DNA of 64,000 nt from the NCBI RefSeq assembly GCF_000214415.1, contig NC_015562.1, forward strand, positions 992,001 through 1,056,000, in the 5' to 3' direction. The notes under the pieces are model-generated. The model worked only from the letters and a program-made list of their open reading frames with translations, did no database searches and was not told the origin of the DNA. Numbering within the stretch: the first letter of the stretch is position 1; each line of letters begins with the position of its first letter. The DNA is from Methanotorris igneus Kol 5. GTDB taxonomy: Archaea > AGJL01 > Methanococci > Methanococcales > Methanococcaceae. Positions 41,789-48,073 of the stretch are shown piece after piece. The translations under genes and the position numbers were made by a program.

Positions 41789-42859
41789 ATGAAATCATAT
41801 TTGAAATTAAAGGAAGAGGTTTGGGACAAAAATATATGCTCTGGATGTGGAGCTTGTGTTGCAGTTTGTCCAGTAGAAAACATATACTTCAAACAGCAGA
41901 GTCCAGTTAAGTTTAAATGTGAGTTATGTGCATGCACAATAGATCCTGCTGCAGAAACTGAATGTCCAGCATCTGCTGAATTTTGTAAGGTAACCTTATA
42001 TAATGTTCCTTGTGGGGCATGTTATGACGCTTGCCCAAGAACAGAGGAAAAATTGGAAATTCCAATTGAGGAGATTGGGAAATATATTGAGATATTTGGA
42101 GCAAAATCAAAAATGGATATAAAATATGCCCAAAGTGGTGGAGCTGTTACAGCAATATTGTGCAATGCTCTTGATGAGGGCTTAATTGATGGAGCTATTG
42201 TTGTAAGTGAAGATAAGTGGACAATGGAACCAAAATCAGTCCTTGCAACAACAAAAGAAGAGTTGATAAAAGCAGCTGGTAGTAGATACAACTGGAACGT
42301 CCCAATATTGGAGGCACTAAAAGAGGCAGTTATGGTCAGAAAATTGGAAAAGTTGGCAATTGTTGGGACCCCTTGTGTTATAAATGCAGTTTTCCAAATC
42401 TTAGCATCAGATAATGATTTATTAAGACCATTCAAAAAGGCTATTAGGTTAAAGATAGGATTGTTCTGTACTGAAACATTCAAATATAGTGAATTAATGG
42501 CTAAAATTAAAGAAATGGGAATAAACCCATGGGAAATAAAAAAGATGGAAATTAAAAAAGGGAAGTTAGCAATTGATTTATTAAATGGTGAGACAAAAGA
42601 AATTCCGTTGAAAGAAATCGAATACTGTGTTAGAAAAGGATGTAGTGTATGTAGGGACTTTACCGCATTGGTATCTGATATCTCCGCGGGTAATGTAGGA
42701 ACTCCAGAAGGAGTAACAACATTAATAGTAAGGAATGAATGGGGTAAAGGTTTCGTTGAGAGAGCAATACTCAATGGTTACTTAGAGAAAGTTGATTGCG
42801 AAGTAAATATTGATGCAATCAAAAAACTCGCTAAGAAGAAAATGGAAAGAGGAAATTAA
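41789..42859 (+). CDS. FrhB-like F420H2-oxidising subunit, probable electron donor of glutamate synthase
   Basis: A 356-residue FrhB/FdhB homologue. Ferredoxin-type motifs (CSGCGACVAVCPVE; CELCACTIDPAAETECPAS; CGACYDACP) are followed by the flavin- and F420-binding core (YAQSGGAVTAILCNALDEGLIDGAIVV, GTPCVINAVF, KIGLFCTETFKY, CSVCRDFTALVSDISAGNVGTPEG). It would pass electrons from F420H2 through FAD and clusters to the ferredoxin domain of the glutamate synthase. It lies 189 bases after the GXGXG gene. The start at 41789 follows AAAGGTGAAAATA. The F420 link is inferred from family and position. Confidence 0.85.
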   Translation: MKSYLKLKEEVWDKNICSGCGACVAVCPVENIYFKQQSPVKFKCELCACTIDPAAETECPASAEFCKVTLYNVPCGACYDACPRTEEKLEIPIEEIGKYIEIFGAKSKMDIKYAQSGGAVTAILCNALDEGLIDGAIVVSEDKWTMEPKSVLATTKEELIKAAGSRYNWNVPILEALKEAVMVRKLEKLAIVGTPCVINAVFQILASDNDLLRPFKKAIRLKIGLFCTETFKYSELMAKIKEMGINPWEIKKMEIKKGKLAIDLLNGETKEIPLKEIEYCVRKGCSVCRDFTALVSDISAGNVGTPEGVTTLIVRNEWGKGFVERAILNGYLEKVDCEVNIDAIKKLAKKKMERGN

Positions 42860-43677
42860 ATAAAACCTTTTTCTTTTAAACTTTTTTTAACGTTTTCAAT
42901 CCCAACATGTTCAACAAAATCACAAATTCTACCTTTTCCAAATTTTGTGTATAGTTCAATAATTCCATCAATAACTTCTATAACCTCATCCTCAGTTTTA
43001 ACATCCACCAGCCATTTTCCTTTTTTTGGAAATTTTCCCCCCTTCCCTCCAATAAATATGGATATAACCCTATCTTCAACCTTTATAGCATTGCAGAGTT
43101 TGAGACATTCCCCCATTCCTATGCAATTTTCTTTTATAACCTTATTTTTCCAATCTATTGCATCTATCTCACAAAAACCTCTGCATTTTCCACAATCAGT
43201 GCATTCTTTTTTATCAATTTTTAAAATGTATCTAAAACATATCCCAATATCGCAAAATTGGTGATGAGTGCAGTTATTTGGGCATCCACTGACATTTATC
43301 TTTAACTTTTTTGGAACCCAAATACCCTCAAACTCATCATGAATCATCCTTGCCAATTTTATCGAGTCCCCAATAGAATTTGGGCATTCAGTTCCAATGC
43401 ATGCAACTATCTGCCTAATCCTTCTACCAGTTGAACCCAACTTAATTCCAACTTCATTCAATATCTTCTCTGCCTCTTCTAAGTGTTCGTGTTTTATCTT
43501 TAACTCAATACCTTGCCTTGTTGTGATATGAACCTTATTCTCTCCAAAATTTTTTGCAATATAACTTATCGCATCTAATTGTTCAGAGGTTATGTAACCT
43601 GGCTTTAATGCCAACCTTATCATGTATCCATCCTTTTTTGGAATAACTCCAAACTTGTAATTTTGGTTGCAGAACAT
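42856..43677 (-). CDS. Small sulfite-reductase-like protein (Dsr-LP type)
   Basis: A 273-residue protein with one ferredoxin-like half-domain (YMIRLALKPGYITSEQLDAISYIAKNFGENKVHITTRQGIELK), siroheme/cluster-type motifs (ACIGTECPNS and SGCPNNC) and an inserted ferredoxin with CTDCGKCRGFCE and CIGMGECLKLC. This fits the small dissimilatory-sulfite-reductase-like proteins of methanogens. The first motif is CX4C as I read it, whereas Fsr in this window has CX5C. Function is unproven; assimilation of sulfur or a siroheme redox role is possible. It is divergent from fsr and its stop overlaps that of the FrhB-like gene by 4 nt. Start follows GGTGATATT. Confidence 0.85.
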   Translation of the reverse strand: MFCNQNYKFGVIPKKDGYMIRLALKPGYITSEQLDAISYIAKNFGENKVHITTRQGIELKIKHEHLEEAEKILNEVGIKLGSTGRRIRQIVACIGTECPNSIGDSIKLARMIHDEFEGIWVPKKLKINVSGCPNNCTHHQFCDIGICFRYILKIDKKECTDCGKCRGFCEIDAIDWKNKVIKENCIGMGECLKLCNAIKVEDRVISIFIGGKGGKFPKKGKWLVDVKTEDEVIEVIDGIIELYTKFGKGRICDFVEHVGIENVKKSLKEKGFI

Positions 43678-43701
43678 AATATCACCAAATATATAAAGGA
43701 G

Positions 43702-43820
43702 TACATATAAAAATATACAAATGAATTATGATATAGACATGTGTGCGTAATTCATGCACACATTAGTAAGTTTTATATATACCTTAGTTAAAAAATAAAG
43801 TGTGAAGAAATTATTCACAC
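43702..43820. promoter_or_regulatory. Divergent promoter region of fsr with two palindromes
   Basis: A minus-strand TATA-like box (TATATTTTTATATG, 43703-43717) serves the small Dsr-like gene; a plus-strand box TTTTATATATACC (43771-43783) serves fsr. Between them lies TGTGTGC-N9-GCACACA (43740-43762). Over the predicted fsr start lies GTGTGAA-N7-TTCACAC (43800-43820). Both inverted repeats are perfect over 7 bp and share the TGTG...CACA form, so they are candidate operators; the second could also fold in the mRNA. Confidence 0.6.
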
Positions 43821-43835
43821 ATGTAGGTGATGCAA

Positions 43836-45689
43836 ATGTACGAGTGGAAATTAAATGAAATTGTTGATAGTGGGATATGTGCTAAATGCGGTACATGTAC
43901 AATAGTATGTCCTAATGGTATATTAACTTTTGAAGATAAACCAAAATTAATAGAGGAGTGTTTAAGAAAAGGTCATGGGATGTGTTATGACGTTTGTCCA
44001 AGGGTCTCATCAGGAAAATACCAAATAAAAATAAGAGAGAAGTTCAAGGAAGAATACTACTATGGAAAAGGAGACATTGAAGGGCAAGATGGAGGAGTTG
44101 TAACAACATTTTTAAAATACCTCTTAGAAAACGGAAAAATTGATGGGGCTATAGTTGTTGGGGATGAGTGCTGGAAACCTGTCTCATTAGTTGTCCAAAA
44201 TGCGGAGGATTTATTAAAAACCGCAAAATCAAAATATGCTGTATCAACACTTGATGCATTAAGAAAAGCTGGAGAAATGGGATTAGAGAAAGTTGCAGTC
44301 GTTGGATTACCATGCCAAATTAATGGATTAAGGAAGTTGCAATACTTCCCATACTTAGCAAAACATGATGGAGAACTCGGCAAAAATGGAAAACCAGTCA
44401 AATTACCAAAAATTGAATACTTAATTGGTTTATTCTGTACTGAGAAGTTTGATTATGACAATATGAAGGAAGTTCTTGCAAAGCATGGAATAGACATTGA
44501 AAAAGTTGAAAAATTCGACATTAAAAAAGGAAAACTTCTCGTTTATATAAATGGAGAGAAGAAAGAAATTGACTTAAAAGAGTTTGAAATCTGTTCAGGA
44601 TGTAAAATGTGTAGGGATTTTGATGCAGAGATGGCTGATGTTTCAGTTGGGTGTGTTGGAAGTCCAGATGGTTACTCAACAGTCATAATAAGAACTGAGA
44701 AAGGGGAAGAGATTAAGAATGCTGTAGAATTAAAAGAAGGTGTTGATTTAGGAGCAATTGAGAAATTAAAACAGATGAAGTTAAAGAGATTCAAGAAAGA
44801 AATTGAAAGAAGAAAAGAAAACAATGAGAAAGTATCATTCTACTGGACAGCCGATTATGGTGGAATTGGTAAGAGAGCAGATGGAACTTACTTCATAAGA
44901 ATTAGAGCAAAACCTGCTGGATGGTACACTGTTGAAGAGATAAAAGAAATATTAAGCATTGCAGAAAAATACAACGCTAAGATAAAATTAACAAATAGGG
45001 GAGCTTATGAGCTCCACGGCATAAGTGGATTTGATGCTGAAGATATTGTTTTAGAACTTATGGAAAAAGGTCTTATAACAGGTTCAGAAGGACCATTAGT
45101 TAGGGCAACATTGGCATGTCCTGGAGCTGGAAACTGTAGTAGTGGATTGATAAATACGCTGGAATTGTGTAAAATAATTGAAGATAACTTCAAAGAAAGA
45201 CCTGCCCCATACAAATTCAAAATTGCAATTAGCGGATGTCCAAACAAATGTGTAAGACCACAAATCCACGACATTGGTATAGCAGGGGTTAAATTCCCAG
45301 TTGTTAATGAAGAAAAATGTAACGGCTGTGGAAGGTGTGCAGAGGTCTGTAAGGTTGAGGCAATTGATATAAGGGGAGAAACATCCTATACCAACTACAA
45401 CGTATGTATTGGATGCGGTAAGTGTATTAAAGCATGTCCAAATGAGGCAAGAGATGTTAAAGAAGAAGGCTTTATGGTTTATGTTGGAGGTAAAACAGGA
45501 AGGGAAGTTGTTGAAGGAATTAGCATGAGGTTGATGAGTGTTGATGAGATAATCAACTTCATAGATAAGGTATTAGTTGTCTATGATAAATACGCTAAGA
45601 AACCACAAAGAGAAAGATTAGCCGCTGTTATGAAGAGAATTGGTCAAGGCAAGTTTCTGGAGGAAGTTGAAGAATTGATGAAAAAATAA
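43836..45689 (+). CDS. fsr: Coenzyme F420-dependent sulfite reductase
   Basis: A 617-residue fusion that reduces sulfite to sulfide with F420H2. The N-terminal half is FrhB-like (CAKCGTCTIVCPNG, GQDGGVVTTFLKYLL, GLPCQINGL, GLFCTEKF, CSGCKMCRDFDAEMADVSVG); the C-terminal half is a dissimilatory-type sulfite reductase with siroheme-[4Fe-4S] ligands ACPGAGNC (Cys428 onward) and SGCPNKC (Cys468), followed by two ferredoxin motifs (CNGCGRCAEVCK, CIGCGKCIKACP). It matches the M. jannaschii enzyme as I recall it along its whole length. It detoxifies sulfite and lets it serve as sulfur source. The start at 43836 follows GGTGATGCAA. Confidence 0.96.
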   Translation: MYEWKLNEIVDSGICAKCGTCTIVCPNGILTFEDKPKLIEECLRKGHGMCYDVCPRVSSGKYQIKIREKFKEEYYYGKGDIEGQDGGVVTTFLKYLLENGKIDGAIVVGDECWKPVSLVVQNAEDLLKTAKSKYAVSTLDALRKAGEMGLEKVAVVGLPCQINGLRKLQYFPYLAKHDGELGKNGKPVKLPKIEYLIGLFCTEKFDYDNMKEVLAKHGIDIEKVEKFDIKKGKLLVYINGEKKEIDLKEFEICSGCKMCRDFDAEMADVSVGCVGSPDGYSTVIIRTEKGEEIKNAVELKEGVDLGAIEKLKQMKLKRFKKEIERRKENNEKVSFYWTADYGGIGKRADGTYFIRIRAKPAGWYTVEEIKEILSIAEKYNAKIKLTNRGAYELHGISGFDAEDIVLELMEKGLITGSEGPLVRATLACPGAGNCSSGLINTLELCKIIEDNFKERPAPYKFKIAISGCPNKCVRPQIHDIGIAGVKFPVVNEEKCNGCGRCAEVCKVEAIDIRGETSYTNYNVCIGCGKCIKACPNEARDVKEEGFMVYVGGKTGREVVEGISMRLMSVDEIINFIDKVLVVYDKYAKKPQRERLAAVMKRIGQGKFLEEVEELMKK

Positions 45690-45712: not shown

Positions 45713-46681
45713 CGCTCATCTTCAACCACCATTACCTAACATAATTATCAGCAATTTGATAAACCAGTTTGATTTGTAGTTATAAATGAATGTGTAGAAG
45801 CTTACGTATATGTGGAGATTTTTCCTGGAAATTCCTCTGTGTTTTCTTAAATAGGGTTTGATTATCGAATGGAAGCATTCGCAGTTATTAATGTGAGAGA
45901 ACCCGTTAGAATATTCTTTCGACGCGTGATTGACTGTTAAATGCACAGATACTTTCGGATGCGAGCTTAAATTTTCATAGATGGTGTATTCGTCCGTATT
46001 AACGATTAAATCGTCTGAATTCACCCCATCAATCATTTCCCATATTCTAACTTTGCTTAAACTAACTTCCACTGAGGTGAAGACCCTTTTCTCCATTCTG
46101 CTGTACAGTGTTATTATTGGAGGTCTCTCAGTTCTGTATGTTCCCCTGCCTCTCCTTTTTAAACCTCTTCTTCGTCTGTTTTCTTTTTTAATTCCTTTAT
46201 CTCCAGCGTTAACATAGAATTCGTCTATTTATATCACATTTCCAGCAATTTTTTTAAAATATTGTCTTTTTCAGATAACTCCATAACTTCCTCCGCGAAA
46301 TAGTAGACGGTTCTGTAATCCCTCTCCAGCTCTTCGGATATCTGTTTAATGGATGAATTTTTCAGGTTTTTGATGATGTAGAACATCTCTCCCAGAGACA
46401 TCTGCTTTTTGGCGAATATCGTTCCAGTTAAATCGTTGAAGTGTCTCCTGCACGAGTTGCATCTGTATCTCTGAATGTATGGTTTATTTCTCTCTTTACC
46501 CTTTAAAATAACATCTCTCGAATTGCAGTATGGACAAACATAGCCCCTACTCCATCTAATCTGCCTTATAACTTCAATACACTCCTTATCCCCCGGTATG
46601 AATAACCCATATATTTTAGCGCTCATAAAACTATTTATGGCAATCATTGTTTATATAGGTAATCATGGATGAACATGAGCG
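45713..46681 (-). mobile_element. IS1595-type insertion sequence, decayed
   Basis: Imperfect 25-bp terminal inverted repeats at 45713-45737 (CGCTCATCTTCAACC...) and 46657-46681 (...GGATGAACATGAGCG). The element is flanked by an exact 8-bp direct repeat TTTTCTAT (45705-45712 and 46682-46689), the duplication size expected of IS1595. Total 969 bp. Its one gene is broken. The intact duplication suggests the insertion is fairly recent even though the transposase is dead. Confidence 0.93.
45722..46647 (-). pseudogene. IS1595-family transposase, broken by frameshift and stop
   Basis: The N-terminal reading (46647 to about 46250) holds the zinc ribbon CPYCNSRD...CNSCRRHF and helical domain; the C-terminal reading (to 45722) holds the DDE core, with IDEFYVNAGDKG and NTDEYTIYENL and HINNCECFHSIIKPYLRKHRG. 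Between them at about 46245 a run of seven A (minus strand) is one short of the in-frame length, and a few codons on, GTG ATA TAA ATA GAC has a stop where Tyr is expected. Two lesions make programmed frameshifting unlikely. If shifted, the frames join as ILKK-IAGNVI. Confidence 0.9.
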
Positions 46682-46775: not shown

Positions 46776-47729
46776 ATGGAGTTAGAAAAGATTCAGAAAA
46801 TTAATATCTTAGTATTGAAGCCAATAAGTGAATTATTAAAAGCAAATGTAGCCACATTTGATAAAAATGGGAAGGTTATACAGCCATTTTATTTTGGAAA
46901 TGAAATATGCAAGATGATAAAAACCCATGAAATTGGAAGAAATATTTGCCAGAACAGCCACAAGAGAGTTTTAAATTCAGCAAAATTAAAAAATAATACG
47001 GTAAAAAAGAGTATTATTGAAAAGGAATTGTCTAAGATTACCCCTATTGCATATCCGGATGACGAAAAGGGACCTATTATTATTGATTACTGTGATGCTG
47101 GACTTTTAAAAGTTCTATACCCTATAAAAAATAACGGGGAGATTGTAGGTTATACTGGAATATGTGGATGCTTCAAAGAGGGAGAGGAGGAGTATTCCCT
47201 CAAAAAATTAGCATCTGTTTCTGAGGTTATAAGTGTTGACAAGGATAAGCTTCTAAATCTTGCAAAAGATGAAATAAGAAGTTTAAGTGAGAATGAGATA
47301 AAGGTAGTTTTAGAACTTGTTAAGAATATGATAAAGTATGATATTGACTTTAAAAAACTCTCTGCTTGCTTATCAAAAAAAGAACTTAGCGAAGAAGACG
47401 AAGAATATATTTTAAAGTTTTTGGAATATTTCGTGCTTCCAACAGCAGAAATTATAAATTCAAACTTGATGTTTTTTGATAATGAACTTAATGCACTTTT
47501 TGTTATGGATTATGATAAATTTTCTTTTGTGATGGAACAAATGGATTATAATAAAGATAGAATAAGAAAATTAGACAAGCCATTATTTTTAGAACAAGAA
47601 AAGATGTTCATAATTCCAATACACAAACTTTATTTAGTAGGTACGATTAGCGAGAATAACAAATACACCACCGAAGAAATAAAAAAGTTCGTATACGTTA
47701 TTTACCAATATTTCCAAATTGTAGTTTAG
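46776..47729 (+). CDS. PocR-domain sensor protein
   Basis: A 317-residue protein. Residues 10-170 match the PocR ligand-binding domain (ICQNSHKRVL, DYCDAGLLKVLYPIKNNGEIVGYTGICGCF), whose conserved cysteines and His suggest a bound metal, heme or small molecule. The C-terminal 140 residues are helical then mixed and do not show a DNA-binding motif. Hence it is a sensor without an obvious output. The start follows a G-rich site (TAGGGGGATT). It ends 3 bases into the stop of the convergent TrmB-like gene. Confidence 0.75.
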   Translation: MELEKIQKINILVLKPISELLKANVATFDKNGKVIQPFYFGNEICKMIKTHEIGRNICQNSHKRVLNSAKLKNNTVKKSIIEKELSKITPIAYPDDEKGPIIIDYCDAGLLKVLYPIKNNGEIVGYTGICGCFKEGEEEYSLKKLASVSEVISVDKDKLLNLAKDEIRSLSENEIKVVLELVKNMIKYDIDFKKLSACLSKKELSEEDEEYILKFLEYFVLPTAEIINSNLMFFDNELNALFVMDYDKFSFVMEQMDYNKDRIRKLDKPLFLEQEKMFIIPIHKLYLVGTISENNKYTTEEIKKFVYVIYQYFQIVV

Positions 47730-48073
47730 TATTTTTTTAGCCATTCCTTAACACTTAAATACCACTCATCTAAAAGTTCCTCCATTTTTACCTTCACTTC
47801 TTTAAATTCAATAGGTCTGTAAATGTATTTAAACCCGCTTTTTTCTGTTACCTTTTCCCTCTCAACTAACCCACAATTCATTAAACTCCTCAATGCTTTT
47901 TGAACTGTTGTCCTATCCCTATCTATTTTTTCGGCAATTTCCATTACTGTTGCTTCCTTCATATCTAAAAGTTCAAAATAAATCCTAATTTCAATCTCCT
48001 GCAAGCCCAAAATACATCTCATCAAGTCCTCAATTGTGAATTTCTGCATTCTCGCCACTATAAGATTATCCAT
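47726..48073 (-). CDS. TrmB-like winged-helix transcriptional regulator
   Basis: A 115-residue HTH protein: FTIEDLMRCILGLQEIEIRIYFELLDMKEATVMEIAEKIDRDRTTVQKALRSLMNCGLVEREK is a clear winged helix of the TrmB/MarR kind, without a sugar-binding domain. The start at 48073 follows GGGTGATTAC. It lies 14 bases after the pelota gene on the same strand. Confidence 0.87.
   Translation of the reverse strand: MDNLIVARMQKFTIEDLMRCILGLQEIEIRIYFELLDMKEATVMEIAEKIDRDRTTVQKALRSLMNCGLVEREKVTEKSGFKYIYRPIEFKEVKVKMEELLDEWYLSVKEWLKKY

Follow-up and report, generated by a model that had tools for sequence, protein, structure and literature searches.

Predicted paired operators at the sulfite reductase gene fsr of Methanotorris igneus and a candidate winged-helix regulator in Methanococcales

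Introduction

Sulfite poisons methanogenesis, and the F420-dependent sulfite reductase Fsr lets some methanogens survive it. How the fsr gene is controlled is the question raised by a 64-kb stretch of DNA from Methanotorris igneus Kol 5 (hereafter the window; positions 992001-1056000 of the 1,854,197-bp single-contig genome), in which two palindromes stand in the fsr promoter. M. jannaschii produces Fsr only with sulfite, by an unknown mechanism for which transcriptional control was left open (PMC6616113). An earlier note on the same DNA had described the palindromes as two perfect 7-bp inverted repeats of the form TGTG...CACA, located between fsr and a divergent small sulfite-reductase-like gene, and had suggested that they may bind a sulfite- or sulfide-responsive regulator of both genes. 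Fsr (MJ0870 type) and the small protein Dsr-LP form a known family (PMC3448663), and the two proteins encoded in the window resemble its members in domain make-up and identity; the novelty lies in the regulation of fsr, the enzyme itself being nothing new.

Results

The two genes indeed diverge and both repeats are real, with the shared form described. Palindrome 2 (GTGTGAA-N7-TTCACAC, 43800-43820) has the 7-bp arms previously reported, and those of palindrome 1 (ATGTGTGC-N9-GCACACAT, 43739-43763) measure 8 bp. When aligned, the two become one class of 21-bp site, GTGTG-N11-CACAC, called here site 1 and site 2. Site 1 lies between the two promoters, as had been noted. Site 2 had been placed over the fsr start; it does not cover the start codon, as it begins 28 nt after the start of the TATA box and ends 15 bp short of the ATG at 43836. 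This ATG, with its preceding AGGTGAT (AGGTGA), is the fsr start codon kept in relatives, and the GTG at 43827 falls within the Shine-Dalgarno stretch. By the usual archaeal geometry, the start of transcription would fall within site 2, and the B recognition element (BRE) would directly adjoin site 1.

Specificity and conservation of the sites were analysed in a sample of 36 Methanococcales genomes, 27 of them with fsr; a phylum-level search gave the same 36 genomes. The genome that contains the window is G000. With up to one mismatch allowed, 0.40 occurrences of GTGTG-N11-CACAC were expected in the window, which holds two exact copies, and these two, both at fsr, are the only exact copies in the whole genome. 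Searched genome-wide, the exact pattern also occurred exactly twice, both times 5′ of fsr, in G035, G001 and G011, and once per genome, at fsr, in G004 and G007, being thus confined to fsr in six genomes. Reversed-pattern controls yielded no match in the window's genome and four in all 36 genomes together. One additional exact site, common to G008 and G014, precedes a 704-amino-acid gene without evident link. The one-mismatch search returned extra matches in every genome; a wider regulon was discarded, as those examined away from fsr fell within genes, 3′ of genes or at sites of no relation, the promoters of DUF169 genes excepted.

One or both sites were kept upstream of fsr in 14 of the 27 fsr-bearing genomes, distributed over family f1 (G000, G035, G034 and G024) and family f2 (G001, G002, G004, G005, G006, G007, G008, G010, G011 and G014). 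The earlier proposal therefore passes that part of its own refutation test which concerned conservation of the palindromes upstream of fsr in other Fsr-bearing methanogens. Site 2 was present in all 14 genomes and site 1 in nine, so that G005, G006, G010, G008 and G014 keep site 2 alone. The distance between the start of the TATA box and the start of site 2 was 28-32 nt in 13 of the 14, the TATA box of G002 being ambiguous, and site 1 ended 10 nt from the TATA box in G000, G035, G001, G007, G011, G004 and G034 and ∼8-9 nt from it in G024 and G002. The whole unit of site 1, TATA box and site 2 stood ∼110 bp further upstream in G024, 150-209 nt from the start codon, with its internal spacing nearly unchanged. 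It is thus the core promoter, and not the start codon, to which the spacing is fixed; this speaks for operators in the DNA. The two palindromes are very probably functional operators.

Second copies of fsr in G007 and G034 (loci L165 and L164), which serve as negative controls, carried no such sites and were dropped as further targets. They follow nitrate-transporter-like and molybdopterin-oxidoreductase-like genes, an arrangement that matches the nar/fsr operon of M. thermolithotrophicus; the enzyme made from that operon is distinct from the isoform expressed with sulfite (PMC9765008). These copies lie in nitrate-assimilation-type clusters and likely encode F420-dependent nitrite reductases.

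The sites are always accompanied by one small DNA-binding protein of 115 amino acids, c8. In an order-wide search, c8 orthologues (at least 65% identity) were found in exactly the 14 site-bearing genomes and were absent from the other 22, including 13 out of 13 fsr genomes without sites. In eight genomes no more than 3 kb separate the c8 gene from fsr, and three arrangements occur: directly behind the Dsr-LP gene on the strand divergent from fsr (G011, G005, G006 and G010), next to fsr and divergent from it, with the two sites in the gap between them (G002), and downstream of fsr and converging on it (G034, G035 and G000). On the Fsr tree, site presence changed three times (four when second copies are counted), each time together with c8, and two of the changes fell on well-supported branches. 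Because of this constant company, c8 is likely the switch of fsr; its binding to the two sites is quite probable.

Comparison of the orthologues revealed several types of c8: those with 88-94% identity to the window protein are linked to fsr, as is that of G034 (80%), while the others (65-70%) are unlinked. These identities and linkages suggest that the module of fsr and its putative regulator was transferred between the two families. A distinct paralogue of c8, with ∼31-43% identity, was present in most genomes. Outside Methanococcales, a scan with exact patterns of 7 to 8 amino acids, which miss distant relatives, gave three loci in GTDB, all of them from Methanococci, and none in IMG/VR. 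As far as the open-licence literature reached, c8 and its target have not been described before, and no paper turned up on MJ1082, presumably the c8 gene of M. jannaschii.

At the protein level, c8 contains the TrmB DNA-binding domain (PF01978, 72.5 bits against a cut-off of 25.6), consists of one winged helix flanked by helices with no effector domain, and fits the single-domain class of ∼100-125 amino acids. Its AlphaFold2 model (mean pLDDT 88.9) best matched M. mazei MM_1094 (PDB 3R0A; Foldseek E 1e-7, TM ∼0.8) and also Sulfolobus AbfR2 (PDB 6CMV). All orthologue types share an unchanged recognition segment, DRTTVQK-LRSL-NCGLV, while the rest of the protein falls to 65% identity, as expected if all c8 types read the same half-site. 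Two cysteines stand out. Cys20, invariant in all aligned orthologues, aligns with Cys17 of 3R0A, which the work on Haloferax aligns in turn with C24 of OxsR, a regulator that relies on this conserved cysteine as a demonstrated thiol switch, predicted to lie at the dimer interface (PMC9426492). The second, Cys67, comes right behind the recognition helix; it does not vary among the c8 proteins, and at its place the paralogues usually have Ala or Val.

A sister operator emerged after the fact. The one-mismatch search revealed another palindrome pair, around the TATA box before a DUF169 gene (G034:C1:947059-947137, L160), and this gene is found in 34 of the 36 genomes. Its promoters (L166-L195) contained one or two T[T/A]GTG-N11-CACAA-like sites, with 8-10 of 10 positions matching, in all examined genomes with the c8 paralogue. 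No such site was found at the DUF169 promoters of G019-G021 (group g2), which lack a close paralogue and whose best score, 7, was reached by ∼40% of shuffles. A score of 8 is weak when taken alone, as up to 8% of shuffles attain it, and G009, a less complete genome in which the search did not find the paralogue, reaches 8 of 10 before DUF169. The fsr and DUF169 sites share length and N11 spacing and differ at the first one or two bases of the half-sites. We infer that the paralogue, which is spread across the order, may read the DUF169 operator as c8 would read that of fsr. As separate observations, a rhodanese-like gene lies directly 3′ of fsr in G024 (L101:11131-11454) and a second DUF169 gene 3′ of fsr in G023 (L111:11523-12209), hinting that both belong to sulfur-oxyanion metabolism.

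The features of the locus are collected in Table 1. Fsr, at 618-620 amino acids and with 84-92% identity to its closest orthologues in related genomes, is a fusion of an F420H2 dehydrogenase (FrhB) half (PF04422/PF04432, residues 85-311) and a siroheme/[4Fe-4S] Dsr half (PF03460/PF01077, residues 351-619). Dsr-LP is a small, free-standing protein of 273 amino acids with a NIR_SIR half-domain (PF03460, residues 13-76) and a siroheme domain (PF01077, residues 84-269).

Table 1. Coordinates of the fsr locus and its predicted promoter elements within the window.
Feature	Position	Strand	Remarks
Dsr-LP, small sulfite-reductase-like protein (NIR_SIR_ferr + NIR_SIR + ferredoxin motif)	42856..43677	-	Divergent from fsr
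Site 1, predicted upstream operator, GTGTGCGTAATTCATGCACAC	43741..43761		10 nt between its end and the fsr TATA box; adjacent to the BRE
Predicted fsr TATA box, TTTATATA	43772..43779	+	From sequence; conserved column block; AGTAAG before it is the BRE region
Site 2, predicted operator, GTGTGAAGAAATTATTCACAC	43800..43820		Covers the predicted start of fsr transcription
fsr, F420-dependent sulfite reductase (FrhB-like + NIR_SIR)	43836..45689	+	Start at the conserved ATG 43836, not GTG 43827
PocR-domain protein, between fsr and c8	46776..47729	+	Beside fsr only in G000 and G035
c8, candidate fsr regulator, 115-amino-acid single winged-helix TrmB/OxsR-type protein	47726..48073	-	ATG 48073, 14 nt behind pelota

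Several neighbours of fsr were recorded in addition. The PocR-domain protein (also at L098:7088-8035) is co-directional with fsr, has conserved cysteines and occurs only in the two genomes of group g1. Pieces of an IS1595-type transposase lie directly 3′ of fsr in the window (45722-46647) and are missing from G035; a matching fragment (L114:8254-8478) stands just 5′ of fsr in G013, a genome with neither sites nor c8. In G003, which also lacks both, a V4R-domain protein (PF02830, 76.9 bits; L113:8672-9115) ends 12 nt before fsr and is possibly a different redox or sulfite sensor in an operon with it.

Discussion

The sites, their spacing, their near-unique specificity, their co-occurrence with c8 and the adjacency of c8 to fsr are read directly from the genomes, and from them we infer binding, repression and the signal. 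On this reading, which we consider probable, the palindromes form a pair of operators through which a dedicated small winged-helix repressor, c8, would control the fsr promoter until sulfite releases it; relief of repression by sulfite, taken separately, is likely to a similar degree. For regulators of the TrmB type, palindromes at the transcription start go with repression and those upstream of the BRE and TATA box with activation (PMC4158304); at the fsr promoter both positions are filled at once. A c8 homodimer would bind each 21-bp site and, in the absence of sulfite, the dimer on site 2 at the transcription start would block RNA polymerase, while site 1 could either strengthen the block or serve as an activating position as in TrmBL1-type regulators. 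On entry of sulfite, or under the thiol stress that results from it, Cys20 (the equivalent of OxsR Cys24) and Cys67 might react directly or indirectly, whereupon the dimer would let go or rearrange and Fsr would be made. Release of c8 by sulfite would account for the production of Fsr only with sulfite.

A bolder extension, which we regard as rather improbable, is that c8 would be a dedicated archaeal sulfite sensor in which sulfitolysis or sulfonation at the Cys20 interface or at Cys67 frees both operators, and that c8 and its paralogue would be a pair of thiol-switch repressors with near-identical operator geometry, diversified within Methanococcales.

Several points weigh against repression by c8 and its release by sulfite. 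In the reducing cytoplasm of a methanogen, a disulfide switch is less self-evident than it is in Haloferax. The absence of site 1 from five of the 14 genomes indicates that the pair is not essential. In six of the 14 genomes the c8 gene is far from fsr and has no site of its own. The match of 14/14 against 0/13 comes down to three changes on the tree, too few for significance in a phylogenetic sign test, and the phyletic profile was compared for c8 and not for every other transcription factor.

Distance from fsr in those six genomes, few independent evolutionary changes and a profiling of regulators that was not exhaustive are also what can be said for the view that the sites are real operators bound by another protein, c8 being a mere genomic companion of fsr or acting elsewhere. 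This is unlikely, given that the co-occurrence of c8 and sites is exact, that c8 adjoins fsr in three different ways, that in G002 it diverges from fsr directly over both sites, that its recognition helix is invariant, and that its paralogue offers a parallel with the DUF169 operator.

It is equally unlikely that c8 is mainly an activator that with sulfite binds site 1 beside the BRE and recruits TBP and TFB, site 2 being secondary. Site 1 holds the position classic for activation, with a constant distance of 10 nt to the TATA box, and OxsR activates from such a position (PMC9426492). The universal site, however, is site 2, and five genomes (G005, G006, G010, G008 and G014) have retained no other.

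Co-regulation of two divergent sulfite-reductase-type genes, which the earlier note had proposed as the purpose of the sites, is improbable. A Dsr-LP gene adjoins fsr and diverges from it in G000, G035, G034, G011, G005, G006 and G010; in the first four site 1 lies between the two divergent promoters, and in the last four the c8 gene is directly behind that of Dsr-LP. Against this, site 1 is kept in G001, G002, G004 and G007, where fsr has no Dsr-LP beside it, and has gone from G005, G006 and G010 although Dsr-LP adjoins fsr; in the compared genomes, unlinked Dsr-LP genes elsewhere showed no such sites. Comparison of linked and unlinked genes thus ruled out Dsr-LP as the common denominator. 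The predicted operators belong to fsr and not to the fsr/Dsr-LP pair, so that what stands of the original proposal is that they are very probably sites of an fsr regulator; Dsr-LP may still be affected in the window's genome because the region is shared. A separate observation concerns G005 and G006 (L106 and L115), where only ∼40 bp separate the Dsr-LP start from an fsr TATA box that looks readable both ways: here a single bidirectional core promoter may drive both fsr and the Dsr-LP-regulator unit, in which case site 2 would be upstream for the divergent side.

Palindrome 2 is just 5′ of the ribosome-binding site and might act in the RNA, as a 5′-leader hairpin controlling translation. This is very improbable, since its counterpart, palindrome 1, stands 5′ of the TATA box and so outside the fsr RNA, the unit of G024 is ∼150 nt from the start codon, and it is the distance to the TATA box that stays constant. 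Finally, site 1 had been suspected, from an impression of similar flanks only, of being what little is left of a dispersed element. This can be dismissed: in the window nothing else matches its flank TATAGACATGTGTGCG with up to three mismatches, the exact pattern is unique to fsr genome-wide, site 1 and its distance to the TATA box are conserved in two families, and the dispersed GC-rich inverted repeats of the window have mostly GGCAAAAC-type arms.

The analysis names exact operators and one candidate regulator gene in organisms with a gene-knockout system. It likewise sets out the components of a sulfite-inducible promoter, which has been discussed as a tool in a paper that mentions a 'sulfite sensor' as an example (PMC10322725).

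Among known regulators, c8 resembles OxsR of Haloferax volcanii, a single-winged-helix protein of the TrmB family (arCOG02242), in size, fold class, PF01978 domain and the cysteine of the N-terminal helix, and also in the proposed position-dependent activation or repression around the BRE and TATA box. OxsR has one cysteine, a CG-rich motif and a wide hypochlorite regulon, whereas c8 has a second conserved cysteine, Cys67, apparently one target operon, and TGTG..CACA dyads. As the proposed c8 sites, GTGTG-N11-CACAC, have AT-rich and not CG-rich centres, c8 is OxsR-like but is not OxsR. MM_1094 (3R0A), the best structural match, with the aligned cysteine, shares 19% identity with c8 and has no assigned function. 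The Lrs14/AbfR2 (6CMV) and Sta1-type regulators of Sulfolobales have a homologous winged helix and long flanking helices, and c8 falls under the NCBIfam cut-offs of both families (NF040939 for Lrs14, 58.5 against 90 bits; NF053606 for Sta1, 72.1 against 80 bits). The operators of TrmBL1/Tgr in Thermococcales (TGM, TATCAC-N5-GTGATA) are, like the fsr sites, palindromes placed upstream of the BRE and TATA box or at the transcription start (PMC4158304); they differ in sequence and spacing, their regulator has a sugar ligand domain, and the fsr promoter carries both positions at once. A TrmB-type regulator with paired operators is a kind of system already known, of which c8 is a new member.

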